Assembly: GCA_964019165.1 (NCBI GenBank)
Contig: OZ025282.1
Location: 14,392,229-14,456,228 of the forward strand
Direction: 5' to 3'
DNA from: Mastigias papua
Taxonomy: Eukaryota > Cnidaria > Scyphozoa > Rhizostomeae > Mastigiidae
Length of the DNA: 64,000 nucleotides
Shown: positions 4,754 to 52,645 of the stretch, in pieces
How the letters are laid out: the number at the start of each line of letters is the position of its first letter
How positions within the stretch are numbered: position 1 is the stretch's first letter
Translations under genes and position numbers: made by a program
Notes under the pieces: model-generated
What the model was told of the DNA's origin: nothing
The model's database searches: none
The model's input: only the letters and a program-made list of their open reading frames with translations

Positions 4754-4930
<177 letters not shown>

Positions 4931-32161: not shown

Positions 32162-32270
32162 GGTTCTAAAGACTGTTATAGCCGGGGTGGCTAAGGAAGA
32201 TGAGCACCTTATGCCTAAAAAATGCCCCAAATGGCATGCGCAATATATAGCCTCTGACAGTCCAGTCCAG

Positions 32271-32313
32271 CTCCTAGCCTTCACGTGGCAGAACCGTTTC
32301 GAACAGATAGGAG
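32271..32313 (+). promoter_or_regulatory. Leader hairpin of element A, CTCCTA/TAGGAG type
   Basis: CTCCTA (32,271-32,276) pairs with TAGGAG (32,308-32,313) around GCC...GGC. In element E the same place has CTCCTG/CAGGAG (47,913-47,918 with 47,950-47,955), a compensated change. Confidence 0.5.
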
Positions 32314-32363: not shown

Positions 32364-32401
32364 TAGACTGAGCTCGTAAGCCATGGTAGGCACTCAGTCT
32401 A
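32364..32401 (+). promoter_or_regulatory. UAG-stem leader hairpin, element A copy 1
   Basis: TAGACTGAG (32,364-32,372) pairs perfectly with CTCAGTCTA (32,393-32,401). The enclosed CTCGTAAGCCATGGTAGGCA has an inner GCC/GGC pair. Confidence 0.65.
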
Positions 32402-32432
32402 GGAGAAGGAAAACTCTAATTACAAACCAGAG

Positions 32433-32470
32433 TAGATGGAACTCTTTAGTCTTGGCTGACAGCTCATCTA
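32433..32470 (+). promoter_or_regulatory. UAG-stem leader hairpin, element A copy 2
   Basis: TAGATGG pairs with TCATCTA (six Watson-Crick pairs plus one G-U). The enclosed ACTCTTTAGTCTTGG carries the inner GTC/GAC pair. It ends 65 nt before the start codon. Confidence 0.65.
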
Positions 32471-32535
32471 GTTGATGGTGTCACAAATAGAAACACCCAG
32501 GAAGGAAAACCTGTATAACCAACCTACCATTGAAT

Positions 32536-35500
32536 ATGGAAAATTATCACAGAAAATCATCCCGCATCGCTCGTCGCGCGGTCAAACAAGGAGCGCGTCC
32601 CTCAATGGTGAACCAGGTTGAGGTCGAAAAATGTACTATTGGAACAAATTCCTCCAACCTCCAGGCTCTAGAGAGTTTCCAAGATGAGAATACAACTCAA
32701 ATAGGCCCTCTAGATAGCAGAAGTACAAACCAGATATTAAAGAAACCAAGACAGAAATGGACAAAGGAGGAATACAAACAAGTTATGATAGCTTATTACA
32801 AGGCACTTGAACAGCTTTCTAACAAGAATACCACCAATCGTGCATATGAGATTTGGAGGAAGGATAATGTTGATAATAGAGCCAATATTGATGCAAGCAA
32901 ACTATCAAATGTAAGAAGAGATATAATAAAGAATAAACGATTAACAGATATGGAACTAGAAAGAATATGATTAGATGTTAGAAAACAACAGCAACCGCCA
33001 ATTGCAACAGTCGTCGATAACAGTACAAATTTAGTTAATGTGGCAAGAGAGGACGGTAGTATGCCATGCATCATTGAGGAAAATGTCGAAAACGTGCCCC
33101 ATTCAGGACAAAATGAAGTGCAGAAATTAGTATTAGACATGATTAACCAAATATTAGAGAAGTGGGTGGAAGTGAAATTCATGGAAATAGGAGACAGAGC
33201 TAAGCTACCGAATATAAATATAGATCTTAAAGCTAAAGAATTACTCAAGATAGCAAATGAAGCTCTTTCAACAATAAAACAAGCATATCAGTTAGGTATT
33301 ACAGAAATCAATGAATTAATATACGCTACGGCTACTGTTGTAACAGAAAGGAAAGGAGTCAAAGTAAAAAAGCAGAGAAAACCAAACAGAAGACAACCTG
33401 CATGGAAAGAAAGAATTGAAAAGGAAATTAATAGCATGCGAGGTGATCTGTCGATGCTCACAGAGTTAACACGAGATAGTAGAATAAGTGAGAGAAAAAA
33501 GAGAAAAATAATGAGAAGATGCAAAATAAAAGAGGAGCGAGACATTAATACCGAAAAAGAAAAGTTGAAGCAAAAGATTCAGGCAAAGGCACAAAGATTA
33601 AAGCGATTTGATAAAAGAAGCAGGCAGTTTAGGCAAAACAAATTGTTTAAAACTAATCCAAAATTATTCTATAGAGAACTGGGAAATAAAAAATTGACGA
33701 TAAATGATCCACCATCTGCTGATGAGGTTGAAAAATTTTGGAAATCAATTTTAGAAGATGATAAACATCATAATGAAGAAGCTGGATGGATTAAAGAACA
33801 AGAAGACAAGTATAGGTACTTAGCTGAACAAGAATGGACAGATATAACTAATGACGAAATTACTTTGGCAATTAGAAAGACAAGTAACTGGAAATCCCCT
33901 GGTATAGACAATGTGCCAAACTTCTGGTTGAAGAATTGTGAAGCCCTACATGAAGATATAGCAAGGTGCTATAATAAGATGGTAAGGGAACCAGAAGAGA
34001 CACCAACATGGCTAACGAAGGGAGTAACATATTTGTTACCTAAAATTCAGGAAACAAAAGTTCCAAAAACTATAGACCGATTACGTGTTTACCAACCCTC
34101 TACAAAATACTAACATCAATCATAGCAGAAAGAACTTACAACCATTTAGAAGAAAGTAATTTATTGCCAGCTGAACAAAAAGGATGTAGAAAAGGCTCAT
34201 ATGGCTGTAAAGACCAACTTCTCATAAATAAATCGATTCTCGAAGATTGTGAGAGTAAAAGAAAGAATTTAAGTACCTCTTGGATAGATTATAGGAAAGC
34301 ATTTGACAGTGTACCTCATAGCTGGATCATAAAGACAATGCAAATTTATAGACTGTGCCCAACTCTAATAAATTATATTACATACAGCATGAGCACATGG
34401 CAAACAACAATGACACTTACCTACTCCTCTGGTTCTATCGTAACAAACCCTATTCGAATTAAAACGGGGATATTTCAGGGCGACTCATTGTCTCCACTTC
34501 TATTCTGCATGTCTCTTGCACCCCTTAGCAATCTACTAAACGCTACAGAATTTGGATATGACATGAATAAAGAACGAGTGAATCACCTGCTTTACATGGA
34601 TGATTTGAAACTGTACTCGAAAAATGACAAACAACTAGAAGGACTGCTTAACACTGTCAAGATATTTAGCGACGACATTGAAATGCAGTTCGGATTAGAC
34701 AAGTGTGCTAAAGCATCTTTTAAGAAAGGGAAATTGACAAAGACTACCAATGTACAACTTGATGACACATGTGTTATTCAGGAGCATGCTGAAGAAGGTA
34801 CTTATGAGTACTTAGGTATAGACGAAGGTAATGGTATTAAACACGCTGCAACGAAAGAAAAGGTTAGGAAAGAATATTTTCGCCGAATTAAGATGATTCT
34901 GAAAAGTGAACTGAATTCATGTAATAAAATCACCGCTATTAACGCCTTAGCAATCCCAGTGGTATCATATAGCCTTAATGTGATTAATTGGCAGATGAAA
35001 GAAATCAGGAAAATGGATGCAAAGACAAGAAAACTAATGACGATGTATAGGATGAACCACCCTAAAGCAGATGTTGATAGGATATACCTCCCCAGGAAGG
35101 AAGGTGGAAGAGGGCTGATGCAATTAGAGTACACATACAAGATTAGCGTAATTGGTTTAGACATGTACTTGGAAAAAACGAAAGACAGACTATTGAGACA
35201 GGTATACACACATGACACAAATAAGATATTATATTCGATTCATAAAGATGCAAGTAAGTTCAGACAAGATATACAGCTACAAGTCAATGTTAATGAGAAT
35301 CAGGAGACAACGCCAATCGCAAAGAGAGTTAAATCATTAAAGAAGGATGTAAAGTTACAAATTTTGACCAATCTTAAGGAAAGGTGGAAAGGAAAGCCCC
35401 TACACGGACAGTACCCGGAGAAAGTTGATAAGGCAGATGTTGACAAAGAACTGACCCACAGATGGTTGCAGAGCTCAGGATTGAAATCAGAGACTGAAGG

Positions 35501-36152
35501 TTTGATAATAGCTGCACAGGATCAAAGTTTAGCAACAAGGTACTATCAACATAGAATTATCAAGAATGGAATTGATCCAAAATGCCGACTATGCCATGAA
35601 TTCGACGAGAGTGTTGAACACATTGTATCTGGTTGTCCTGTTTTAGCCAAGAAGGAATATTTAGAACGACATGATAAAGCACTTAGTTATGTTCACTGGA
35701 ATATATGTAAATATTATCAAATAGACGTCCCTAATAAATGGTATGATCATAAGCCAGAAAAAGTTGTTGAAGGGAAAGATGCAACAATACTATGGGATAT
35801 GCCTATTATCACAGACAAGGAAATCAAAGCAAACAGGCCAGACATTGTAATTAAAGAGAAACCTACAACTATGTGCATGTTAATTGATATGGCTGTACCA
35901 TCAGATCGAAATATTGCGGCAAAAGAAGTTGAAAAGATTTCAAAATACAAAGATCTTGAAATAGAAGTTAGTAGGATGTGGAAAACAAAAACAACTGTCA
36001 CCCCTCTGGTAATTGGAGCATTGGGAATAATACGAAAGGGAGTAAATCGATATATTGAGAGAATACCTGGTAACATCAAGGTCGAGGAACTGCAGAAAAT
36101 TGTTCTACTTGGAACTGCTCACATACTAAGAAGAACTCTCTCAATAACTTAG
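32536..36152 (+). pseudogene. Element A polyprotein (Myb, RT, endonuclease), two lesions
   Basis: Start at the ATG at 32,536. Domains: basic N-terminus (SSRIARRAVKQGARPS), Myb-like QKWTKEEYKQVMIAYYKALE...LSNVRRDIIKNKRL, a long charged linker, RT with NWKSPGIDNVPNFWLKN, EQKGCRKGSYGCKDQLL, SWIDYRKAFDSVPHSWI (A), TGIFQGDSLSPLLFC (B), LLYMDDLKLYSKN (C); finger CRLCHEFDESVEHIVSGC; endonuclease RPDIVIKEKPTTMCMLIDMA with downstream KISKYKDLEIE. Lesions: in-frame TGA at 32,968-32,970, and a 1-nt loss in the A-run at 34,065-34,069. The coding part after 34,079 is open to the TAG at 36,150. Closest relative in the window is D. Confidence 0.9.
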
Positions 36153-36220
36153 CCTCAGGACCATAGTTTAGTCCCGGCAATTCAATGTACTGAAGTTTAG
36201 AAATTTTTCTTTGTAACACA

Positions 36221-36233
36221 TAATAATAATAAT
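36221..36233. repeat. (TAA)4: A/B junction
   Basis: 3' end of A (ACACA) joined through four TAA units to the truncated 5' edge of B. Confidence 0.95.
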
Positions 36234-39200
36234 TTAGACAACAGCGTAAATGAGACTGGAACTAATTGTGAAGGTCTCTCGCTCGGCAGGTGTCCCACGG
36301 AAGAGCAGCGTGGGCCCGGTCGTTATCCTACTACTGCCAGAACTGGATGGTCGAAAAGTATGAATGTAGCAGTAATGGAGTGTTATTTTTTGAGCAAGCC
36401 TGTAGATGAAGAAGGAAAACCAGTAAGAGGCTATAGACGTAGAATGCACAATATTTGGAATGAGAGGCAAACCTTAAAAGTGACTGAACAGCGACTATGT
36501 GACCAAGCTCGCATAGTTAGAAAGAATGGTTGGCTAACTCAGGTTGAATTGGATGATATAAAGCAAAGACTTTCAACACACGAGGAAATGATAACAGAAG
36601 CTAGTCACGTGGTAGAGGAGGGCAATCTAGTTGAATTAACAGAGACGTTGCTTGAAAGAGAGCCTGTGGCTACTATCCTAGAAAATCATGGTAGGAATGA
36701 ATTAAACTCAAAAGCGATAGGAGAAATTATTAATATAATGAATGAAGGGAACCTGAATACGCCGGTAAATCTTAAAAAAGTAGATAGGAGAGCCTTGAAT
36801 GAGCTTGTTAATGAGATAGATAATGTGCTAGCTGACATTAGAACGGATAACATAAGTGATACAAACAAATTGATACGTGCTACTGCGGTGTATGTTGCAA
36901 GAGAATTTGGCTTTGGGGAACGGAACAAAGCATATAGGATGAAAGAGCCTTGGTGGAAAAGAAGAATAATAGAATCCATAAGCAAACTCCGTAAAGATAT
37001 CAATATCCTTGAACGTAAAAAGAGAGGAGAATCAATAAAGAAAAGCAAATATAATGAAATTTCTAGGAAATACAATCTCACGAAAAAAGGTATTAGTTTG
37101 GTGATCGAAGAGTTGAAACAGAGATTGCAAGCCAAGGCATTCAAATTACGTAGGTATGAGCAAAGAACGCAACAATATCAGATTAATAGAATGTTCCAAT
37201 ATGATCAAGCGAAGGTTTATCAAAAACTTCAATGTGACAACAAAAGAGAAATTTCAAAACCAAGTGCAGATGAAAGCAAACAATTTTGGTCGGAAATATG
37301 GGACAACAAAATCCAACATAATAATGCTGCAAAATGGTTAGAAGAGCTTAGAAATAACAAGCGTAGTGTGGTACAAAATGACATGGAAATTACAACTAGC
37401 ATGGTGAAGCAGCAAATCAAGAAGATCCCCAACTGGAGAGCACCTGGCCCTGATGGAGTCCAGGGCTTTTGGATTAAGAAGCTAACGTCACTACATGAGA
37501 GAATTGTATCTCAGTTGAATGACTTGTTACATAACCAGACAGAAATACCTGCATGGATGACCACTGGAAAAACTGTATTGTGTCAAAAAGACCCAAGAAA
37601 AGGAAATGCAGTTGACAATTATAGGCCCATATCCTGTTTGCCAATGATGTGGAAACTGATGACAGGGATCATTTCTGATTCTATCTACAAGTTTCTGGAT
37701 GAGAATGAGGTGCTACCAGAAGAACAAAAAGGCTGCAAGAGGAATAGTAGGGGTACAAAAGATCAAGTACTGGTGGATAAAACGATACTTGCAGATTGTA
37801 AAAAGAGGCATAAGAACCTTACCATGGCGTGGGTTGACTACAAGAAAGCCTATGACATGGTTCCTCACAGTTGGATATTAGAATGTATGAGGCTATATGG
37901 AGTATCAGACAGTGTTACTAACTTTCTGAAAAAATCAATGAGCAAATGGATGGTACAACTGACGTCTTGTGGTGAAATTTTTGGGACTGTAAACATACGG
38001 AGAGGTATATTTCAAGGGGACAGTTTGTCACCATTACTGTTTGTCATTTGTATGATTCCTCTTACTGAAATCCTCAGAAAAGTCAAAATGGGATATACTT
38101 TGGATGGTATTAAAATCAACCATTTCTTCTTCATGGATGACTTAAAGTTGTTTGGAAAAAACGAAAATGAAATTGACAGCCTAGCATCTACTGTTAACCT
38201 TATTAGCCAAGACATAGGCATGCAATTTGGAATTAAAAAGTGTGGTGTGGTACACTTGAAACGTGGAAAATTATCGAAAACTGCAGGAATTGAACTTGTC
38301 AATGGTGAAAAGATCAAGGAGGTTAATGATGAGGGATATAAGTATTTGGGTATATTGGAACTAGATAGATTGAAGGAGGAAGAAATGAAGACTACATTTC
38401 AAAAAGAATATTTCAGAAGGGTGAGACTGATAATGCAATCAAAACTTAACGGAAGAAATAAGATCAAGGCAATAAATACTTGGGCGGTCTCCTTAGTGCG
38501 CTATGGGGCAGGAATCATAATGTGGAAGAAAGCCGAATTAGAATCCATGGACAGAAGAACTAGGAAACTCATGACAATGAATAAGGAACTTCATCCAAGA
38601 GGTGATGTTGCAAGACTTTATGTTGGAAGGAAAAATGGTGGTCGGGGATTGATTAGTTGTGAGACTTGTGTTAAAACTGAGATAAACAATTTGGCTTGGT
38701 ACATTAAGCACGTCAGAGGTCCTATCGTGTCAATTGTAAGAGATCTTGGGACAATAAATGCCGACGAGGCAATAGCTTCAAGAGAATATAAGAGTAAGGC
38801 GAAACGGGAATTGGAAAATCAATGGAAGGAAAAACCAATGCATGGGGAATTCACTAGGAAGACAGATGGAATTCATTGGGAAAAAAGCTTGTCATGGTTA
38901 AGGAGCGGAGACCTGAAAGGGTGCACAGAGGCATTAGTATGTAGTGCACAGGAACAGTCTCTGCGAACTAATTACACTAAGTTTCATATCGACAAAACAA
39001 GTGATACGCCTTTATGTAGAATGTGTGGTGATAAGGGTGAAACAATTAGCCATCTAGTAAGTGAATGTGCAAAACTAGCACAAAGAGAATACAAAAGACG
39101 ACACGACAACGTAGCGCGATATATTCATTGGCTGTTAGCGGAGAAATGTGGATTTGACAGAGCTGCAAAGTGGTACGAACAGAAGCCGGATGGAGTGTTA

Positions 39201-39692
39201 GAGAATCTAGACTTTAAGCTGCTGTGGGATTTTATGATACAGTGCGATAGGATTATTCAAGCAAGAAGGCAAGACATTATTCTAGTTGATAAGGTAAAAA
39301 TGGAAGTAAAGATAATTGATATTGCAATTCCCGGTGATAGTAGGATTAGAGACAAAGAACAAGAGAAAGTTGAGAAGTATGAAGAGTTAAAGGAAGAAAT
39401 TGGAAGGGTGTGGAACATGAAGAAGGTTACAGTTATCCCTGTTGTGATTGGTGCACTAGGATGCATATCGCAAAGATTTGATAGCTATATGGACAAGATT
39501 GGAATTACTGTACAGTTGCAAGTGATACAAAAGACAGCACTCCTAGGAACAGCACGGATTTTAAGAAAGACATGTCTATGTAAGCCATTAAGTATGAAAA
39601 GGTGGGTCCTTTATCAGCTTGTTGCTGATTGTTCCCTCCTTACTCACCCAGACCTGTTAACACCTTATTGTCTGTGAGAAAATAGATTACCC
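36234..39692 (+). mobile_element. R4/Dong-like non-LTR element B (5'-truncated)
   Basis: Sister of C. Its first bases (TTAGACAACAGCGTAAATGAG) correspond to codons about 10-15 of C, so the leader and about 10-15 codons are missing. The 3' UTR ends ACCCATAATAAT. Confidence 0.85.
36360..39677 (+). CDS. Element B polyprotein (Myb, RT, endonuclease), open
   Basis: The frame is open from the (TAA)4 tract (36,221) without any stop to 39,677. 36,360 is the first in-frame ATG; residues encoded upstream (EEQRGPGRYPTTARTGWSKS) are homologous to C. Domains: Myb-like VAVMECYFLSKP...RLCDQARIVRKNGWLTQ, basic linker, RT with NWRAPGPDGVQGFWIKKL, EQKGCKRNSRGTKDQVL, AWVDYKKAYDMVPHSWI (A), RGIFQGDSLSPLLFVIC (B), FFMDDLKLFGKN (C), finger CRMCGDKGETISHLVSEC, endonuclease RQDIILVDKVKMEVKIIDIA, where the usual Pro of RPD is Gln. 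The C-terminus runs about 30 residues past the family end (TARILRK), so the original stop was lost. Probably not active: it has no leader and an altered endonuclease motif. Confidence 0.88.
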   Translation: MNVAVMECYFLSKPVDEEGKPVRGYRRRMHNIWNERQTLKVTEQRLCDQARIVRKNGWLTQVELDDIKQRLSTHEEMITEASHVVEEGNLVELTETLLEREPVATILENHGRNELNSKAIGEIINIMNEGNLNTPVNLKKVDRRALNELVNEIDNVLADIRTDNISDTNKLIRATAVYVAREFGFGERNKAYRMKEPWWKRRIIESISKLRKDINILERKKRGESIKKSKYNEISRKYNLTKKGISLVIEELKQRLQAKAFKLRRYEQRTQQYQINRMFQYDQAKVYQKLQCDNKREISKPSADESKQFWSEIWDNKIQHNNAAKWLEELRNNKRSVVQNDMEITTSMVKQQIKKIPNWRAPGPDGVQGFWIKKLTSLHERIVSQLNDLLHNQTEIPAWMTTGKTVLCQKDPRKGNAVDNYRPISCLPMMWKLMTGIISDSIYKFLDENEVLPEEQKGCKRNSRGTKDQVLVDKTILADCKKRHKNLTMAWVDYKKAYDMVPHSWILECMRLYGVSDSVTNFLKKSMSKWMVQLTSCGEIFGTVNIRRGIFQGDSLSPLLFVICMIPLTEILRKVKMGYTLDGIKINHFFFMDDLKLFGKNENEIDSLASTVNLISQDIGMQFGIKKCGVVHLKRGKLSKTAGIELVNGEKIKEVNDEGYKYLGILELDRLKEEEMKTTFQKEYFRRVRLIMQSKLNGRNKIKAINTWAVSLVRYGAGIIMWKKAELESMDRRTRKLMTMNKELHPRGDVARLYVGRKNGGRGLISCETCVKTEINNLAWYIKHVRGPIVSIVRDLGTINADEAIASREYKSKAKRELENQWKEKPMHGEFTRKTDGIHWEKSLSWLRSGDLKGCTEALVCSAQEQSLRTNYTKFHIDKTSDTPLCRMCGDKGETISHLVSECAKLAQREYKRRHDNVARYIHWLLAEKCGFDRAAKWYEQKPDGVLENLDFKLLWDFMIQCDRIIQARRQDIILVDKVKMEVKIIDIAIPGDSRIRDKEQEKVEKYEELKEEIGRVWNMKKVTVIPVVIGALGCISQRFDSYMDKIGITVQLQVIQKTALLGTARILRKTCLCKPLSMKRWVLYQLVADCSLLTHPDLLTPYCL

Positions 39693-39757
<65 letters not shown>
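39693..39757. repeat. (TAA)n, about 21 units: B/C junction
   Basis: 65 bp of uninterrupted TAA repeats. Confidence 0.97.
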
Positions 39758-39758
<1 letters not shown>

Positions 39759-39936
39759 GTCCTGGGTATGACATAAAACTGCAACCGGTTGTGGAGTTTT
39801 GACGTGGGATAATGAGGTTACCCTTTGCCACAATTACCTCCAGGTCACTCTTGAGCAAGGTGTAGTACCTGTCAGCTCTCCCCGAGACTACGAAATACCG
39901 GGTTGGCATCCGGCGGGGGCTAGTCTGTCTCATGGG

Positions 39937-39974
39937 TAGGAGGGACTCTTCAGCCTTGGTTGGCAACCCTCCTA
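39937..39974 (+). promoter_or_regulatory. UAG-stem leader hairpin, element C
   Basis: TAGGAGGG (39,937-39,944) pairs perfectly with CCCTCCTA (39,967-39,974). Inside, ACTCTTCAGCCTTGG leads to an inner GCC/GGC pair. It ends 72 nt before the start codon at 40,047. Confidence 0.7.
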
Positions 39975-40046
39975 GTGATGGTGTCACAATTAAAAACACC
40001 GGTGGTTGTGTCACCTAATCACCACAAAACCTCGTTTTGAGTGAAA

Positions 40047-43000
40047 ATGAATCATATCAGAAATGAAGATAACGACGTGAATGGTACTGGAACTTTATGT
40101 GAAGGTGCCTCGTCCGGCAGGTGTTCTGTGGGTGAGCAGCGCAGACCCGGTCGTAATCAAGCGACTGCTAGAATGAAGTGGACGAAAGAAATGAATATTG
40201 TTGTAATGGAATGTTTTTATAGTGCTAGACCGTTTGACGAGAATGGTGTGCCAAAGAGGGGCTATCGGCAGAGGATGTTCAGAGCATGGAAGGACAGAGG
40301 TGTGTTTAACACGACTGAGCAAAGACTGTGTGATCAGGCTAGAGCCATTAGGAAAAATGGTTGGTTAACGGACGTTGAATTGGAGAGCATAAAAAGAAGA
40401 GTGTTGCAACATGATGAAGTTGATGGCATTGATGAGCGAGAAGAAGTATTACCAAGATTGGATGTTGAGGGTGAGATTAATGAGGAATACGAAGCTGATG
40501 TTAGAATTGAGGTCAATGAGGAAGTAGAAATTACACCCGAAGAGCTACAGATTATTGAAGAAGTAAAAGAATTATTAACACAAGAAGAAGACGAGAAGTA
40601 TATCATGTTTAAAAAAGTTGATAGGAAAAAATTACGTAACAAAACGCAAGAGGTGAATGGAGCTATTAAACACATTGTAACCGTAAGTATTACCCATACT
40701 AATAACCTTATCAAAGCAGCTAGTTGTTGGGTAGCAAAACAACTAGGATTAAGTACAGTTAAACAGAGGAAGAAACATACCCCATGGTGGCAACGGCGTA
40801 TAGAAGGAGATATAAAGAACTTGAGGAAAGATGTCAACATCCTTGAAAGAGAGAAAAGGGGTGAGAACGGAGTAAAGGGGAAAAGAATCGTGAAGAATTT
40901 AGTTGATAAATATAGAATAAATAGGAAAGGGCTAGAAACAGTAATAGAAGAATTAAAGCAACGGTTATTAGCAAAAGCCGCAAAGATAAAGAGATATAAT
41001 GAGAGAATAACTCAGTATAGGCAGAATCGAATGTTTGCAGTTGATCGGAAGAAGGTGCTGAATGAATTGAACGGGGAAACTAGGGGGCAAAATGTCGTTC
41101 CAGGTGCTGAAGAAAGCAGGAAATTTTGGAGTGAAATCTGGAGCATCAGAAAAGAACATAATAGACAAGCTGAATGGTTGAACGAATTGAAACGACAGCA
41201 AAACAATGTGAGAATGGAGGAGGTAGAGATCACAACAGAAATGGTAAAAAATCAGTGTAGAAAGATCCCTAATTGGAAGACCCCTGGAAGAGATGGTGTT
41301 CAAGGTTATTGGATTAAGAATCTTACATCAGTGCACGAAAGAATAGCAGCTCAGCTGAATGAAATTGTTTGTGGAGTAAGCAGATTACCTGAATGGATGA
41401 CGTATGGGAGAACTGTTCTATGTCAAAAAGATCCAAGTAAGGGAGGAGCAGTTGATAATTATCGGCCTATATCCTGTCTACCTTTAATGTGGAAGTTACT
41501 AACAGGTATGATTGCTGGAGAGGTGTACAAATATTTAGAAAAGGAGAATATATTGCCTGATGAACAGAAAGGTTGTAGGAAGGGGAGTCGTGGAACTAAA
41601 GACCAACTGTTGATTGACAAGGCTGTACTGACAGATTGTAAAAGGAGAAAGACTAACTTATCTTTGGCGTGGATCGATTACAGAAAGGCATATGACTTGG
41701 TGCCTCATAGCTGGATTAGTGAGTGCCTAGAAATGGTAGGAATAGCAACGAATATTAGAGAGTTCTTGAGTGACAGTATGCAATCATGGAAGCTAGAACT
41801 AACATCATCTGGTGAAAGGTTAGGGGATGTGCATATTAAGAGAGGAATTTTCCAGGGAGACAGTCTATCCCCACTATTGTTTATTATATGTATGATTCCA
41901 TTGACATTGATATTGAGGAAAGTGACAGCTTGTTATGAATGGGGTGACAAAGAATTCAAAGTTAATCATCTCCTTTTTATGGATGATCTTAAATTATTTG
42001 CCAAGAACCGAAACCAAATGGATTCATTAGTGAAAACTGTTCATGTTTTCAGTGGTGATATAGGTATGGAGTTAGGATTAAGCAAGTGTGGGGTGTTGGT
42101 ATTAAAGAAAGGGAAAATTGTGAAGCAAACCGGGATTTCACTTCCAAATGGAGATTTGATGAAAGAAATTGATGAACATGGGTATAAATATCTGGGTATT
42201 GTGGAACTAGATAAGCTTAAAGAAAGGCATATGAAAGGCAAGTTAACAAGCGAATACAAAAGAAGGTTTAAGTTGGTATTGAAATCGAAGCTAAATGGTA
42301 AGAATAAGATATTAGCGATTAACACGTGGGCTGTACCAGTATTGAGATATGGAGCAGGTATCCTGAAATGGACAGCTACTGAATTGAAAAGCTTGGATAG
42401 GAAATCAAGGAAAATTATGACCATGTATGGCGCATTTCACCCTAAGAGTGATACAGACAGGTTATATCTGACCAGAGAGAAAGGAGGCCGTGGGTTGATT
42501 AGCTGTGAGGGTTGTGTTAGAAGTGAAGAAAATAATTTGGGGTGGTATGTAAAGAATTCTGAAGAATCATTGATTCAAGGTGTTAGATTTGCTGATGTGA
42601 TAGATACTAATGATGTAAGAAGAAGTGACGAATTCAAGAAACTGCAAGTGTATGAAAGACAACAAAGTTGGAAGGAGAAAGTTATGTATGGTCAATTTGT
42701 AAGGGAGATGCCAGAATCAACTGATGCAAAGGAAACATGGAAGTGGCTAAGAAGTGCTGGCTTAAAGATACAAACAGAGGCACTTCTGTGTGCAGCGCAG
42801 GAACAGGCCCTCCGAACAAAGTATATCAAGCATCACATTGACAAATCAATAGAGTCACCACTTTGTAGGCTATGTGAAGAAAATGGCGAAACAGTCTGTC
42901 ATATTGTCAGTGAATGCAAAAAGTTGGCTCAAAAGGAGTATAAACGAAGACACGATAATGTTGCAAGGTTAGTACATTGGCACCTATGCAAGAAATATAA

Positions 43001-43433
43001 TTTTGAGTCGACAGACAAGTGGTATGAGCATTCCCCTAAAGCTGTAATGGAAGACAATGTGATAAAACTGCTATGGGATGTTAACATTCAATGTGATCAT
43101 GTGATAGAGGCGAGGAGACCTGATATAGTTATTATCAATAAACTTGACAGAACGTGCATTATCGTTGACATTGCTGTACCCGGCGATAGTAGAATTAGCC
43201 AAAAAGAAAAAGAAAAGGTTGAGAAATATCAAGATTTGAAGAGGGAAATCAAGAGAATATGGAACTTGAGAAATGTAATAGTTGTACCTGTGATTGTAGG
43301 AGCATTAGGAAGTATAACAAAGAAGTTGGGTGAATGGATAAAGAAGCTAGACATCTCAATAGCCATAGAACTACTGCAGAAAACAACAATACTAGGAACA
43401 GCCAGGATTTTGAGGAAAGTACTTGATTACTAA
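40047..43433 (+). CDS. Element C polyprotein (Myb, RT, finger, endonuclease), intact
   Basis: 1,128 residues from the ATG at 40,047; the frame is closed upstream by a TGA at 40,038. Myb-like domain at about 42-108 (MKWTKEMNIVVMECF...RLCDQARAIRKNGWLTD), which in this group probably helps choose the DNA target. Basic and coiled linker to about 400. RT with NWKTPGRDGVQGYWIKNL, KGCRKGSRGTKDQLLIDK, AWIDYRKAYDLVPHSWI (A), RGIFQGDSLSPLLFIIC (B) and LLFMDDLKLFAKN (C, Asp 646 and 647). Finger CRLCEENGETVCHIVSEC from residue 940. Restriction-like endonuclease RRPDIVIINKLDRTCIIVDI with Pro-Asp at 1025-1026, Asp about 1041 and a downstream VEKYQDLKREI Lys region. Ends VLDY. It would nick a TAA-rich target and prime reverse transcription of its own RNA. 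The only element here with leader, frame and catalytic residues all intact. Confidence 0.93.
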   Translation: MNHIRNEDNDVNGTGTLCEGASSGRCSVGEQRRPGRNQATARMKWTKEMNIVVMECFYSARPFDENGVPKRGYRQRMFRAWKDRGVFNTTEQRLCDQARAIRKNGWLTDVELESIKRRVLQHDEVDGIDEREEVLPRLDVEGEINEEYEADVRIEVNEEVEITPEELQIIEEVKELLTQEEDEKYIMFKKVDRKKLRNKTQEVNGAIKHIVTVSITHTNNLIKAASCWVAKQLGLSTVKQRKKHTPWWQRRIEGDIKNLRKDVNILEREKRGENGVKGKRIVKNLVDKYRINRKGLETVIEELKQRLLAKAAKIKRYNERITQYRQNRMFAVDRKKVLNELNGETRGQNVVPGAEESRKFWSEIWSIRKEHNRQAEWLNELKRQQNNVRMEEVEITTEMVKNQCRKIPNWKTPGRDGVQGYWIKNLTSVHERIAAQLNEIVCGVSRLPEWMTYGRTVLCQKDPSKGGAVDNYRPISCLPLMWKLLTGMIAGEVYKYLEKENILPDEQKGCRKGSRGTKDQLLIDKAVLTDCKRRKTNLSLAWIDYRKAYDLVPHSWISECLEMVGIATNIREFLSDSMQSWKLELTSSGERLGDVHIKRGIFQGDSLSPLLFIICMIPLTLILRKVTACYEWGDKEFKVNHLLFMDDLKLFAKNRNQMDSLVKTVHVFSGDIGMELGLSKCGVLVLKKGKIVKQTGISLPNGDLMKEIDEHGYKYLGIVELDKLKERHMKGKLTSEYKRRFKLVLKSKLNGKNKILAINTWAVPVLRYGAGILKWTATELKSLDRKSRKIMTMYGAFHPKSDTDRLYLTREKGGRGLISCEGCVRSEENNLGWYVKNSEESLIQGVRFADVIDTNDVRRSDEFKKLQVYERQQSWKEKVMYGQFVREMPESTDAKETWKWLRSAGLKIQTEALLCAAQEQALRTKYIKHHIDKSIESPLCRLCEENGETVCHIVSECKKLAQKEYKRRHDNVARLVHWHLCKKYNFESTDKWYEHSPKAVMEDNVIKLLWDVNIQCDHVIEARRPDIVIINKLDRTCIIVDIAVPGDSRISQKEKEKVEKYQDLKREIKRIWNLRNVIVVPVIVGALGSITKKLGEWIKKLDISIAIELLQKTTILGTARILRKVLDY

Positions 43434-43536
43434 AGGAGACTGACTGCAAGGGATCTTTGGTCATAGGTTATGACTCGCTCCCTTGAGAAATACAATCGGC
43501 AATGAGATCAGCCAGTGCTTAAAGCTGAAACACAAA

Positions 43537-43549
43537 ATAATAATAATAA
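43537..43549. repeat. (TAA)4-5: C/D junction
   Basis: Short TAA tract between the 3' end of C and the 5' end of D (AGGGGTCAAGGG). Confidence 0.95.
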
Positions 43550-43970
43550 GGGGTCAAGGGTCCTTGGAGGAGTAGTCCCTTTTCTAGTTGGCCTTCTGTG
43601 GCGTCCTAGACTGGTCTCCCCAAACCCAGCACCTTGTGAAGCGCAATATAGAGCCACTCCATGGTGAAGACCGTCTGTGCGTGGTGAAGAGCCACATCCT
43701 ACTAGAGGTGGCCATGTGACAAGCCAAACACAGCGGATCTAGGGGAGTAAACCCCGAAAACAAATCCGTAACTCAAGGTGTAAATCGTGCTGGTGGGTGG
43801 ATGGCTACAACGGCATGTAGTCATTAACGATACAAGACAACCACTGCCTTGTGGATTAGGTGTACAAGCCAAAGGCTAAGGGTGAAGATCCCTAACAGAA
43901 AGCTTCTTAGTTTTCCCCTGATAGCTATGGCGTTTAGGGGAATTTCCCCAGTCATAGGCAAATGACCTGG

Positions 43971-43998
43971 TAAACTGGACCAGAAAGTCCTGGAAGAC
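43971..43998 (+). promoter_or_regulatory. UAG-stem-type leader hairpin, element D
   Basis: TAAACTGG (43,971-43,978) pairs perfectly with CCAGTTTA (43,991-43,998). The inner GTC (43,987-43,989 region) and GAC enclose CTGGAA, as in the other elements. It ends 66 nt before the start codon. Confidence 0.6.
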
Positions 43999-44064
43999 AA
44001 CCAGTTTAGGAGAATGTCACTCTGATGTAAAACATCCAGCTATGGGAAAATAATAAAACCTTTA

Positions 44065-47000
44065 ATGGATAAGTTAAAGAATAGTTTATCATGCCGCATC
44101 GCTCGTCGTGCGGATGTACAAGGAGCGCGTCCCCCAACGAGGAACCAGGCTGGGGTCGAAAAATCGATTACTGGAACAACCTTACCCAACAATGATCTGG
44201 CAGGTAACCTTACCGAGACCTTCTCTCAAAAAGGCTCTCCAGACACAAAAAGTCTGTCCAGAAGTAAACAGAAAACAATTAGACAAAGATGGACAAGGGA
44301 AGAATATATACAAGTCATGACAGCATTTTATGAGGCAAAATGTTCGCCAGCAGAAGGCTCAAATACAGAGCAGACATATAAATTATGGAGAGAGAAACAC
44401 CTGGAAATTAGACCAGCGATGGATGCTAATAAGCTTGCTAATGTAAGACGTGATATTATCAAGAATAAGAGACTAGAAGACACCACATTACAACAGATTC
44501 AAAATGATATAAGAGAGAAAATTGAAATACAAAATGTAGATAATAGCTGTAGTGCAACCAATGATGGTACAGAGGAGAGTGAGATACTGCATGAAACAAC
44601 TGTCATCAGTCAGCCAGATATTGAAACCTCAGATCAGATCAACACCATTGATACAGCTTCAAGTGAAGAGGTAAGTGCAATTTCAGAAAAGATAATGATT
44701 AAATTGGAAGAACTGAAGCATCAACATCTATCTGATAGAATCCAACTTCCTAAAATTAGAAAAGATAGAAAAGCAAAAGATCTTATACACAAGGGAAATA
44801 TTGCGACCCTCAAATTAAAAACACAGGCCATGGAACCGCTCACAATAACTGAGCTTAATCAGATGGTATATGCTACAGCATCAGTAATAACGGAAGAACT
44901 TGGAGTAACGATACAAAGAAAGAAAGGCCGACAACATAAGCAACCCCAATGGAAAGAAAGGATTAGCAAGGATATAGAATGCTTAAGGAAGAAACTGTCA
45001 ATTTTAACCGAGAAAGTGAAAGGTAGCATGGTATCTCACAGAAAGATCACTCGAGTGCTGTCTCAACTTAAGTGTAAGAGTGAGGCAGATATACCATCAA
45101 TTACAGAAAAGATAAAGCAAAAAATTGCAGCCAAAACACAAAGGACAAGGCGGTACGAAAAGAGAGGGAAGCAATTCCGTCAAAAAAAACTGTTTAAAGA
45201 TAATGCGAAGCAGTTCTATAGAGAAATTGGCAAGAAGCAAATTGATGTAACTGAGCCACCTATACTTACTGAAATCGAAGGTTTCTGGTCGAGAATTTGG
45301 GAAAATGAAAAAGTCCATAACGAAGTAGCTGAATGGATTAGAGACCAGGAAGAATTATATAAAGATCAGCAATGCCAAGAAACTAACGATATCACAATTG
45401 ATGAGGTACGCACTGCAATAAAAAATGCGAACAACTGGACATCACCAGGGTTAGATAAGATTCCAAATTTCTGGCTTAAGAACATAGATAAGCTGCACAC
45501 GGACCTGGCAAGGGAATATAATACCATTCTCAAAGAACCAGACAAATGTCCAGAGTGGCTAACACAAGGATTAACATTCCTGATTCCTAAATCTAATGAT
45601 ACAAATGAAGCTACAAATTACCGACCAATAACTTGCTTGCCAACTATGTACAAAACATTAACCTCGATCATTACAGATAGAACATACTTGCACCTGGAGG
45701 ACAATAGATTATTACCCAATGAGCAAAAAGGATGCAAACGGGGATCATATGGTTGTAAAGATCAGCTCCTAGTGAATAAAATGATAATGGAAGACTGTAA
45801 AACAAGAAAGAAGAATCTGACAACATCATGGATTGACTACAGGAAAGCATTCGACAGTGTGCCACACAGCTGGATTATAAAGACATTGGAACTTTACAAA
45901 GTATCGCCTGAGATTGTTAACTTTATGAAAGTGAACATGAAAAACTGGAAAACAACATTGCTTCTAAGACATGCTACCGGCACACTGACGTCTCGATTGA
46001 TAGAAATAAGGAGTGGCATATTTCAAGGCGATTCTTTATCCCCGCTTCTATTTTGCTTGGCTCTGGCTCCCCTAAGCAACTTGCTTCATTCTACTAATTG
46101 CGGATATGATATCCATGGAAAGAAAATCAACCATCTCTTCTATATGGACGATTTAAAGGTATTTGGCAGAGACAGTCAGCAACAAGAGCGCTTGCTTCAA
46201 ACTGTTAAAACATTTAGTGACGACATTAATATGAAATTTGGACTAGACAAATGTGCCACAGCAGAATTCAAACGGGGTAAACTAGCTACAACTACATAAA
46301 TCAGACTTGATGAAGACACGACTATCAAAGAGTTGCAACAAGAGGATAGCTACAAATACCTTGGAATAAATGAAGCTGACGGTATTCAGCATGCAAAGAT
46401 GAAAGAAAAGATAAGAAAGGAGTATTACAGGAGAGTTAGACTGATACTCAAGAGTGAATTGAATGCAGTTAATCGTATTGCAGCCATCAACTCTCTTGCT
46501 ATCCCAGTCATCACATATAGTATGAATATACTCAATTGGAAGATAAATGACCTCAAAAGGCTTGACACAAAGACAAAGAAACTCTTAACAATGTATAGAA
46601 TGCACCATCCAAAAGCAGATGTGGATCGACTATACTTACCAAGAAGCGAAGGAGGGAGGGGACTAATGCAAATAGAGTTAACTTTCAAGATAGTGACTGT
46701 TGGTCTCGAAACATATTCAAGAGAAAGCAAGGACGAAATGATGAAATTGATCTTAGAGCATGAGAAGAAAAAGAAGTTATACTCTGTTACAAAAGAGGCT
46801 ACCAAATTTTGTAGAGAGCTAGAAGTCGATCAACCAGGGCATAGGGAAACGGATAGTGTCACAAATAAAGCCAAAGAAGTAAAGAATATAGTGAAAAAAC
46901 AAGGAAAAGAACAGATAAGAATAAGATGGGAACAGAAGCCGCTGCACGGTCAGTACTTGAAAAGATTGAAGAGACCAGATGTTGATGAAACTGAAACACA

Positions 47001-47700
47001 TAAGTGGTTAAAAAGTTCAGGATTAAAATCAGAGACAGAAGGCCTAATAATAGCAGCACAAGACCAAAGTTTAATGACAAAGCAATATCAAAGTGAAATA
47101 ATGAAGAATGGAATGAATCCCAAATGTCGACTATGCAATCAATATAATGAAACAATTGATCACATTGTAAGTGGATGTCCTGTATTAGCAAAATCAGAAT
47201 TCATGCAACGACATGACACAGCTGCATCATACATACACTGGAGAATTAGTAAGGCATTCAAACTACCTGTAGCGGACAAATGGTATAATCACAGCCCAGA
47301 AACTGTCGTGAGCAATGACCAAGTAACTTTAATATGGGATATGCAAGTACACACAGATAAAGAAATAAAGGCTAACAAGCCTGACATCATTATCAAAGAT
47401 CACATAAACAGCACGTGCCAACTGATTGATATGACTATACCTTCGGATAGAAATGTATCAATAAAGGAAGTTGAAAAATTTTCAAAATACAAGGATTAAG
47501 AAATTGAAATAGGCAAAATTTGGAAAATGAAAGTAACTACAATTCCTGTAGTTATAGGTGCGCTTGGAGCTATAAAGAAAGGAATGAAATCGAACATTGA
47601 CAAGATACCGGGGAAAATATACTTAGAAGAACTACAGAAGATCACACTACTGGGCACTGCTCATATCCTCAGGAAAGTTCTGTCAACTGACTTAATGTGA
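44065..47700 (+). pseudogene. Element D polyprotein, two in-frame TAA stops
   Basis: Start ATG at 44,065; one frame of 1,211 codons to the TGA at 47,698-47,700, broken only by TAA at 46,297-46,299 and 47,497-47,499. N-terminus SCRIARRADVQGARPP is shared with A. Myb-like QRWTREEYIQVMTAFYEAK...LANVRRDIIKNKRLED. RT: NWTSPGLDKIPNFWLKN, EQKGCKRGSYGCKDQLL, SWIDYRKAFDSVPHSWI (A), SGIFQGDSLSPLLFCLA (B), LFYMDDLKVFGRD (C). The first stop falls just after the RT core, the second between the endonuclease motif (KPDIIIKDHINSTCQLIDMT) and its Lys-containing end (FSKYKD). Finger CRLCNQYNETIDHIVSGC. All catalytic residues seem present. Confidence 0.9.
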
Positions 47701-47774
47701 CCTTGTATGTCCTAAGATCTATGGATTAGATTTGGATTTGCAGGAAGAACAGAAAAGACTTAATAGACATTTTA

Positions 47775-47800
47775 TAATAATAATAATAATAATAATAATA
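47775..47800. repeat. (TAA)8: D/E junction
   Basis: TAA tract between the 3' end of D and the 5' end of E. Confidence 0.95.
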
Positions 47801-48005
47801 AGGTTCTAAAGGATTGCTATAGCCGGGGATGGTTGAGGAAGATGAGCGTCCGATACCTATCAAATCTCCCAATGGCGTACGGAAAATATAGCCTCTAGCA
47901 GTCCAAGTCCAGCTCCTGGCCTTCACGTGTCAGAACTGTTTGGAACTAACAGGAGAAGGGGCGAAAGGCGGGTATCTGGCGCCTTCAAATAGCCAGTGCT
48001 CCGGG

Positions 48006-48042
48006 TAGAACAAGCTCGTTAGCATTGCCAGCAATTGTTCTA
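48006..48042 (+). promoter_or_regulatory. UAG-stem leader hairpin, element E copy 1
   Basis: TAGAACAA (48,006-48,013) pairs perfectly with TTGTTCTA (48,035-48,042); the loop holds GCTCGTTAGC. Same position as A copy 1 but different stem sequence. Confidence 0.65.
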
Positions 48043-48075
48043 GGAGAAGGAAAATCTCTGATTTCAAAACCAGGG

Positions 48076-48113
48076 TAGATGGAGCTCTTTAGTCTTGGAA
48101 GACAGTCCATCTA
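48076..48113 (+). promoter_or_regulatory. UAG-stem leader hairpin, element E copy 2
   Basis: TAGATGGA (48,076-48,083) pairs perfectly with TCCATCTA (48,106-48,113); inner GTC/GAC around TTGGAA. Confidence 0.7.
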
Positions 48114-48141
48114 GTAGAAACTACACGAATAATTGTATGGG

Positions 48142-48179
48142 TAGATGGTGCTCTTCAGCCTTGACAGGCAAATCATCTA
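48142..48179 (+). promoter_or_regulatory. UAG-stem leader hairpin, element E copy 3
   Basis: TAGATGGT (48,142-48,149) pairs with ATCATCTA (48,172-48,179), seven Watson-Crick pairs and one G-U; inner GCC/GGC around TTGACA. It ends 73 nt before the ATG at 48,253. Confidence 0.7.
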
Positions 48180-52413: not shown

Positions 52414-52645
52414 ATTAAATGTCCTGGGTATGACATAAAACTACATCCGGTTGTGGAGTTTCGACGTAGGATAATGAGGTTACCTTTAGCCACAACTACC
52501 TCCAGGTCACCCTTGAGCAAGGTGTAGCACCTGTTAGCTCTCCCCGAGACTACGAAATACTGGGTTGGCATCCGGCGGGAGCTAGTCTGTCTCATGGGCA
52601 GGTTATCAGCTCTTGAGCCTTGGTTGGCATTCACCTAGAGATCCA
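52414..52645 (+). mobile_element. Leader stub F of a C-type R4/Dong-like element
   Basis: Closely similar to the first 230 nt of C (GTCCTGGGTATGACATAAAAC..., GGTTGGCATCCGGCGGG, GTCTGTCTCATGGGCAGG), up to the hairpin equivalent of 39,937-39,974 (here only AGGT/ACCT plus inner GCC/GGC). It then stops before the start codon. A retained 5' end without a 3' end is the reverse of usual target-primed truncation, so it implies a later deletion or recombination. Confidence 0.85.

Follow-up and report, generated by a model that had tools for sequence, protein, structure and literature searches.

Among non-LTR retrotransposons, Dong (Bombyx mori) and R4 (Ascaris) of the R4 clade self-cleave at their 5' junction by an HDV-like ribozyme (PMC3774820). 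Proposals for R2 include translation that begins independently of a cap and a 5' pseudoknot linked to translation, and the R2Bm RNA near the ORF start is structured, with proposed roles in translation and integration (PMC12203849). Exchange of modules between non-LTR lineages is indicated by the title of a study on reticulate ORF1 evolution in Jockey LINEs (PMC4120745). Here, we analysed elements in a 64-kb stretch of Mastigias papua DNA (the window). Like Dong, they lie at TAA repeats, and element A and, by homology, element E have a predicted HDV-like ribozyme fold at the 5' junction, as Dong and R4 do (PMC3774820). In contrast to R2Bm, the module described below is located in the untranslated leader, and its main part is a hairpin starting with UAG that is present one to three times. 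Unlike in Jockey LINEs, the module that appears to have been exchanged is noncoding, namely the leader of R2/R4-like elements, whose end lies near a covarying hairpin. Among the papers listed in literature searches, judged by titles and abstract beginnings, none deals with the UAG hairpin or with shared R4/Dong leaders, and the accessible parts of PMC3774820, PMC12222951, PMC12203849 and PMC11331408 mention neither.

Judged by their sequences, the elements are R2/R4/Dong-like non-LTR retrotransposons located in (TAA)n. Elements A to E are flanked by (TAA)n runs, and in 60 of 65 locus rows the leader is preceded by a TAA run (exceptions: L023, L043, L054, L055 and L057). The protein of element C matches Pfam RVT_1 (E 1.8e-27); among solved structures, R2 proteins match it best (E 1.6e-25), with LINE-1 ORF2p behind at 5.7e-12. 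Pfam gave no endonuclease match for this protein. The family protein alignment shows conserved PD...D...K residues, which resemble the motif of a restriction-like endonuclease and may mark a C-terminal enzyme of that type. Outside the C and B lineages, the encoded proteins are 33-52% identical to the nearest protein in the window. Named relatives listed were Penaeus for the C protein and Paramuricea clavata for a neighbouring element. Searching public genome and viral contigs with the C protein yielded no related loci. With a 23-protein alignment, viral contigs again gave none and genome contigs gave one (L003), in whose first 800 bases no leader was seen. Hairpin patterns searched against viral contigs returned two chance-like matches in one search and none in another.

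The window contains seven intact hairpin copies and one broken copy, all on the forward strand and all between the 5' end of an element and its ORF. The preliminary description had listed six, which are present with the stems as written there, but it overlooked A2. Hairpin A1 (32364-32401) is supported by an architecture descriptor, its single-sequence fold and covariation, and A2 (32433-32470), at the junction of an E-like leader and a C-like spacer, by the core motif, leader BLASTN and covariation. Descriptor and covariation support C1 (39937-39974), D1 (43971-44008), E2 (48076-48113) and E3 (48142-48179). E1 (48006-48042) is the orthologue of A1 with three two-sided changes, and is supported by covariation and a hold-out model. 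The broken copy F1 (about 52599-52637) belongs to remnant F, whose C-type leader has lost its 3' part; the match is partial (19 bits), and the core is present while the stem is broken and folds no better than shuffles (z +0.73).

In the shared architecture, an 8-bp outer stem that starts with UAG is followed by the internal loop CUCUUYA and by a 3-bp GYC/GRC stem closed by a UUGG-type hexaloop. Single-sequence folding of the seven intact hairpins gave z-scores from -2.53 to -0.40. The weakest, A2, has a mismatch at the innermost pair of its outer stem, where seven genome copies form 8 of 8 pairs. Copy number differs between elements, with three hairpins in E and one in C, and the E2 and E3 cores are found again, at a distance of 66 nt, at 14 more genome loci. 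The ORFs carry a second hairpin within their first 100 nt. The preliminary description placed the end of the last hairpin 65-73 nt ahead of the start codon in each of the four elements; in fact, the gap is 65 nt in A, 72 nt in C and 56 nt in D. In E it is 73 nt to the first in-frame ATG, or 196 nt if translation starts at the Met at window position 48376, which corresponds to the start in 10 of 14 listed relatives.

The hairpin is a real RNA structure kept by selection for pairing. In the five leaders, the architecture-only descriptor found 6 matches, whereas 200 dinucleotide shuffles gave 0.33 on average and never more than 3; across the entire window, with one AT-rich stretch masked, there were 10 matches on the forward and 6 on the reverse strand. 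Allowing up to 3 mismatches, the core motif matched six times in 64 kb, always in leaders (0.7 expected); these matches do not include D1 and E1. The seven window hairpins had 97% of cells paired and two-sided changes in 7 of 11 pairs, and their pairing exceeded shuffles on four of five measures. A covariance model built without D1 and E1 recovered both. In a covariance-model search of both strands, the copies scored 43.5-55.3 bits on the forward strand, versus 11.7-15.4 for five copies also listed on the reverse strand, and outside the leaders there was no match better than E 0.27.

In the host genome, the hairpin core pattern matched exactly at 284 positions, while the reversed pattern matched at none. 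The first 100 matches were listed and loci were cut out for 30 (on the genome sequences labelled C1 and C3); 11 short stretches with unusual 5' strands, chosen from the listed matches, were added. The hairpin was present in 30 of 30 loci with a C-type leader. Among 29 distinct hairpins (F1 excluded), pairing holds in 97.5% of cells and covariation is seen at 7 of 11 pairs; the unpaired letters CUCUUYA, UUGG and AA are conserved. The larger alignment, the other genome copies and the covariance model all bear out the previous reading of the hairpins as a selected RNA structure. The inner GYC/GRC pair, also part of that reading, stands on covariation, since pair 18-27 is C-G in 15, U-A in 10 and U-G in 1 of the 29 hairpins (2 unpaired, 1 gap). 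But the pair is imperfect in E1, and the minimum-energy fold of single sequences shows it in only A1 of the seven, and in the broken F1.

Directly 3' of the hairpin, a small stem in most copies probably forms an H-type pseudoknot, for which support is weak. The candidate after C1 (39975-40000, forward strand) pairs GTGA with TCAC around the loop TGGTG, whose GGTG can pair with CACC. The alignment comprised 26 of 31 distinct spacers (all but those of L048 and L071 and those after A1, A2 and E2), the spacers of D1, E1 and E3 having been missed by the collecting expression and so lying outside the set. One pair had 9 two-sided cells and one had 2; neither these two pairs changed on both sides (reached by 409 of 500 shuffles) nor the six pair types (230 of 500) were above shuffles. 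The spacer 3' of A2 (32471-32497, forward strand) is a C-like block whose relatives form the candidate pseudoknot, A itself being absent from the alignment. Loop pseudoknots between the seven window hairpins and their flanking 70 nt, in four combinations, did not exceed shuffles.

Upstream of the hairpins and separate from them, a predicted HDV-like ribozyme fold, of the kind known from non-LTR retrotransposons, opens element A (32162-32313, forward strand) and, by homology, element E (47802-47955, forward strand). In A, the descriptor match begins at the first base after TAA, with no match in 10 shuffles, and the best score is 15.5 versus at most 12.5 in 30 shuffles. The modelled fold has P1 (GGTTCT/AGAACC) at the 5' end, P2 (CTCCTA/TAGGAG), a 3-bp P3 (GCC/GGC), P4 (GTT/AAC) and CAGA, matching CNRA, before P2' in a nested double pseudoknot. 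The E fold shares place and register with A and shows a two-sided change in P2 (CTCCTG/CAGGAG); one P3 pair is broken, and its score of 13.0 is inside the shuffle range (up to 14.5). The same fold, with P3 intact, lies at the exact 5' end of L071, as it does in A and E. At the 5' ends of C, D and F, the descriptor found no HDV-like ribozyme above shuffles, though a divergent form may be present. Rfam gave no match in the whole window at gathering scores, the setting at which the D and F leaders were covered, nor in the leaders of A and E when matches with E up to 2 were admitted; in the C leader, it gave one miRNA match on the other strand, far below the cut-off (E 1.6). The role in 5' processing considered in the preliminary description is probably not played by the hairpins, which have no P2' partner; a separate HDV-like fold lies at the 5' end of A and, by homology, of E.

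A stronger clue to function, missed in the preliminary description, is that leaders, as their alignments indicate, are exchanged between element lineages, in a block that has the hairpin at its 3' edge. The C-type block, from the 5' end through the hairpin (39755-39974, forward strand), is common to many ORF lineages. Among 17 ORF-cluster representatives, mean identity is 92-94% in this leader (about 219 nt), 87% in the hairpin, 79% in the next 60 nt and only about 68% in ORF DNA, which argues for exchange. The clustering used 69 rows, including two duplicates (window C is L004, and L056 is L005), and excluded L015, L027, L030, L031 and L033, whose hairpins fell outside the regular expression. 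Mosaics also occur within the window: A is E-like upstream of A2 and C-like downstream, while F is C-like upstream of its hairpin and weakly E-like downstream (2 of 500 shuffles). The A and E leaders are related, yet their ORF starts have no detectable DNA similarity. In A-type copies, including those with other ORFs, the shared block continues 66 nt past the hairpin at 94-97% identity (seven of eight stretches, L087 not matching the expression).

Our preferred reading, to which we assign a probability of only about 0.4, is that the hairpin module, carried by a leader that is passed between lineages, helps ribozyme-cut, uncapped RNA to start translation. Judging from the fold and the published Dong and R2 data, the ribozyme of A- and E-type leaders would cut the RNA at the 5' end of the element and leave it uncapped. 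The hairpin module would act next, most likely by letting ribosomes start on the downstream ORF independently of a cap. Since the same leader precedes many divergent ORFs, it may more likely act through the ribosome or a common host factor than through a protein domain specific to one lineage. The leaders contain 5 to 9 upstream AUGs each, at least the number expected from composition, and this lack of depletion fits a start of translation that needs no scanning from the 5' end. Against a role in translation stand the variable spacing between hairpin and start (56, 65, 72, 73 or 196 nt), the presence of three hairpins in E but one in C, the C- and D-type leaders without a detected ribozyme and the E score within the shuffle range.

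The main rival, which we regard as rather unlikely, is that hairpin and pseudoknot are a binding site for the element's own protein and steer RNP assembly or second-strand cleavage. Protein-binding RNA sites often keep conserved unpaired letters, and the hairpin has these beside its covarying stem; the second hairpin early in the ORFs points the same way. So does silkmoth R2, whose structured 5' RNA has a conserved pseudoknot bound by its protein (PMC12203849, PMC11331408). But a single leader type is found with many ORF lineages, and the related leaders of A and E precede dissimilar ORF starts. Still, leader exchange is compatible with protein binding because the conserved core could be recognised in all lineages by an RT or NTE domain that is itself conserved. 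More doubtful is that the hairpin serves mainly as an exchange junction, where reverse transcriptase pauses or switches template so that divergent elements share one leader. Homology blocks change at the hairpin in A (at A2) and F, and C-type identity falls across it; however, the fall-off is gradual, only these two window cases place the junction there, and the A-type block runs well beyond it. Moreover, selection for pairing is not needed for a passive junction, and gene conversion or exchange within (TAA)n chains could spread a leader too.

Two further readings fit the data far less well. A derivation of the hairpins from HDV-like ribozymes, as decayed or partial cores with P1, P3 and the 5' P2 strand but no P4 or P2', is very improbable, although the order of outer stem, 7-8 nt, 3-bp GYC/GRC and 6-nt loop resembles P1-P2-P3-L3, and CTCCTAGCC...GGC of the A ribozyme resembles CTCTTCAGCC...GGC of the hairpin by eye. 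One or two extra nt separate P3' and P1', between-element leader BLASTN joins no ribozyme core to a hairpin, and no P2' complement lies downstream: the summed best match of 27 was below the shuffle mean of 28.3, on which ground we rejected the hairpins as HDV-like ribozymes. Least credible is that the block encodes the short peptide LFSLG. Outside the outer stem, variation does concentrate in every third column of the TAG-to-TAG frame (59 minority letters versus 13 and 8), but the covarying inner pair accounts for two of these columns. Among the 38-nt rows (27 of 29), an internal stop occurs in 8, and an ATG follows the TAG in only 3. The peptide was rejected for these stops and missing starts.

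It is an open question how translation begins on retrotransposon RNAs that a ribozyme has cut and left uncapped, and the module is a concrete candidate for this step, present in hundreds of copies; R2-type elements are under development as gene-insertion tools. A bolder and doubtful extension is that the elements of this genome behave as a single pool that recombines and whose 5' control region is interchangeable. The 219-nt leader with its UAG hairpin would then have spread over most of the sampled ORF diversity, with reverse transcriptase switching between the RNAs of different lineages at a hairpin that would be both translation element and recombination joint. From the sharing of one leader by many ORF lineages, the 5' control region would seem to evolve as a part that can be swapped, so that trees of the ORFs would not describe the leaders.

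Elements A to E lie head to tail in (TAA)n on the + strand (32162-52400), followed by the remnant F at 52418; across 32105-52420 the five same-strand elements are chained, each inside the (TAA)n adjoining the previous one. Their proteins are reverse transcriptases (Pfam RVT_1 where scanned), R2 proteins are the closest solved structures to the C protein, and by sequence the elements appear R2/R4/Dong-like. Hairpin core matches about 3.8 kb apart were seen elsewhere in the 346.8-Mb host genome (e.g. contig C3, 12173190 and 12176990), the one genome behind all genome-wide counts, so such chains may be common. A Penaeus indicus protein (P0019) matches the C protein (40047-43433) at 74% identity over 74% of the latter's length, a likeness for which horizontal transfer is possible; for a neighbouring element, the named relatives among the matches listed are from Paramuricea clavata. 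An R2/R4-like element protein (33% identical) is encoded on a contig filed as Streptomyces narbonensis (L003, NZ_BMSF01000045.1), pointing to contamination of the assembly with eukaryotic DNA.

The leaders, the parts 5' of the ORFs, of A, C, D and E carry UAG-stem hairpins (A1, A2, C1, D1, E1, E2 and E3); B has no leader. The preliminary description had counted six hairpins of common architecture but different stems. The architecture stands, with a common geometry made up of an outer stem of 8 bp, 8 nt leading to a 3-bp inner stem with a 6-nt loop, and then 2 nt, but there are seven intact copies, and the gap of 65-73 nt described for all four elements between the last hairpin and the start codon does not hold throughout, the distance to the ORF start being variable. 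E1 has one nt less than the others, the innermost outer pair of A2 is a mismatch, and the A1 stem can also be read as 9 bp. A letter-free descriptor matched six times in five leaders (200 shuffles: mean 0.33, maximum 3), and ten times on the + and six times on the - strand of the whole window. One of the six leader matches, at about 43938 in D, lacks the family geometry, and the descriptor missed A2 and E1 in the leaders, in our reading because of the mismatch and a weak inner stem, respectively. For the seven hairpins of the window, the share of paired cells is 97.4%, and 7 of 11 pairs show two-sided changes; none of 500 shuffles reached four of the five pairing measures, while 105 reached the observed number of further pair types. 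Sliding the partners lowered the paired cells to 22-45%, and other loop pairings had no support within the window. A long AT-dinucleotide array at about 4754-4880 dominates the hairpin scan if unmasked.

Since hairpins selected as hairpins pair by construction, we ran tests that escape this bias. The orthologous A1 and E1, whose leaders are 79% identical across 320 nt, differ in their stems by three two-sided and zero one-sided changes; three random changes per strand would leave all eight pairs standard with P = 0.0035. A covariance model built without D1 and E1 recovered both (E 6e-6 and 5e-7), ahead of the F remnant (6.5e-4) and E2 on the other strand (0.084). The pattern GTAGNNNNNNCTCTTYAGYCTTGG, which comprises the 5' half and core and excludes the 3' strand of the stem, had 284 exact genome matches versus 0 for its reverse. 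In the 30 of these 284 loci cut in full, the outer stem is fully paired (8/8 positions) in 28 and the inner stem (3/3 positions) in 29. Across 29 distinct hairpins, 97.5% of cells are paired (0/500 shuffles), 35 cells carry two-sided changes (shuffle mean 9.0, 0/500) and seven pairs covary (1/500 shuffles), which supports the earlier proposal of an RNA structure selected for kept pairing. Eleven extra genome stretches, chosen for unusual 5' strands, gave 13 matches. Two without the TTGG core pair at only 3/8 outer positions; L076 diverges from the family past TTGGTT, lacks any inner pair and pairs by chance at 7/8 outer positions (many G-U); the remaining ten keep 6 to 8 of 8 outer pairs, four being complete. 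In columns 9-30 of the 29-hairpin alignment, outside the outer stem, every third column holds most of the variation (minority letters by phase, 59 versus 13 and 8); despite this pattern, translation of the block as a peptide is impossible in most copies.

Immediately after the hairpin on its 3' side, a small stem (GTGA-TGGTG-TCAC or GAGA-TGGTG-TCTC) stands in most copies; past an A-rich linker come CACC, CACT or TACC. Under an H-type pseudoknot model, 26 distinct sequences have 96.6% of cells paired (0/500 shuffles); one pair in the first stem has nine two-sided cells (eight being U-A to A-U) and one in the second has two (G-C to A-U). Since neither two-sided pairs (2) nor pair types (6) exceeded the shuffles, we grade this predicted pseudoknot as probable only. 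Each ORF of A-E has a second hairpin in its opening 100 nt (32600, 36294, 40125, 44132 and 48313); its stems differ (CCCACG/CGTGGG in B, TCTGTG/CGCAGA in C), its loops are partly alike (B and C sharing GAGCAG, A and D GAACCAG), and it may reflect structure or coding constraint.

Upstream of A2 the A leader resembles the E leader (score 237, shuffle maximum 33), and downstream of it the C leader (40 versus 23). The A ORF start resembles that of D (139 versus 33) and matches neither that of E nor that of C; protein identity is 27-31% for A/E and 56-62% for A/D. Outside the hairpin, the D and A leaders share only a short match (score 26, 3/500 shuffles).

As judged by sequence comparison, leader exchange is not a one-off and recurs across the genome. 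We grouped 40 scored matches to the C leader (39755..39974), the window itself being one, by identity to window C. Same-lineage copies account for 25 (leader 92-98%, ORF 94-99%), L043 is an older one (88%, ORF 90-94%), and L015, L023 and L030 seem truncated or composite. Ten loci (L032, L034-L042) combine a leader identity of 93-96% with merely 54-68% in the ORF. Judging by the same-lineage identities, a slower pace of change than in the ORF is not inherent to the leader, at least in these copies, most of them recent. Clustering of 69 rows (two of them duplicates), all encoding a related protein, placed 62 in one leader cluster spread over 17 ORF clusters, the loci having been chosen by hairpin or leader, so that such counts do not give the share of elements with a C-type leader. 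Because L023, among the 17, is a truncated C-lineage copy, at least 16 ORF clusters share the leader at this cut, including B-lineage (95%), D-like (33-44%) and E-like (43%) ORFs. Averaged over all pairs of the 17 representatives, identity drops from 93.7% and 91.9% in two leader parts to 87.3% in the hairpin and 79.0% in the next 60 nt, then to 72.3% in the following 100 nt and to 69.5% and 67.6% further on, low values being inflated by the alignment method. At least 40 genome copies of the A leader, window copy included, reach 95-100% identity. Seven of eight such stretches were readable, four with the A ORF (97%) and three with a different one (74-76% to A; D scores 69-72% by the same measure), and all seven are 94-97% identical across 66 nt 3' of the hairpin. 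The E2/E3 core pattern matched 57 times in the genome versus 5 for its reverse, and at 14 loci beyond the window the two cores lie 66 nt apart, so the E hairpin pair is a family; L071, the sole such locus checked, has the E ORF.

Upstream of the hairpins, A has a predicted HDV-like ribozyme fold from the first base past TAA, scoring above shuffles. The E fold, in the same position, scores 13.0 (shuffles up to 14.5) and is therefore predicted by homology to A. P2 changes from CTCCTA/TAGGAG in A to CTCCTG/CAGGAG in E, where P3 has lost one pair and P2 one outer position; P3 is unbroken in L071, a genomic relative of E. Passages of PMC3774820 describe self-cleavage of Dong behind TAA repeats. At the 5' ends of C, D and F no descriptor score rose above the shuffles, and Rfam scans of window and leaders gave no relevant family. 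In C-type leaders the TAA repeat is separated from the conserved GTCCTGGG by a few variable bases, as if gained or lost at the 5' junction.

The A and E leader RNAs would probably be cut by their own predicted ribozyme and left uncapped, and R2 is thought, in passages of PMC12203849, to start translation cap-independently. The hairpin module lies between ribozyme and ORF and is found with many different proteins; upstream AUGs in the leaders are not depleted. As the best single reading we tentatively favour a translation-start element (probability roughly 0.4). We rank second, and consider rather unlikely, a binding site for the element protein, for which R2Bm offers a parallel in that its 5' RNA is protein-bound (passages of PMC12203849 and PMC11331408). 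A role as exchange junction would be compatible with the translation-start and protein-binding readings alike.
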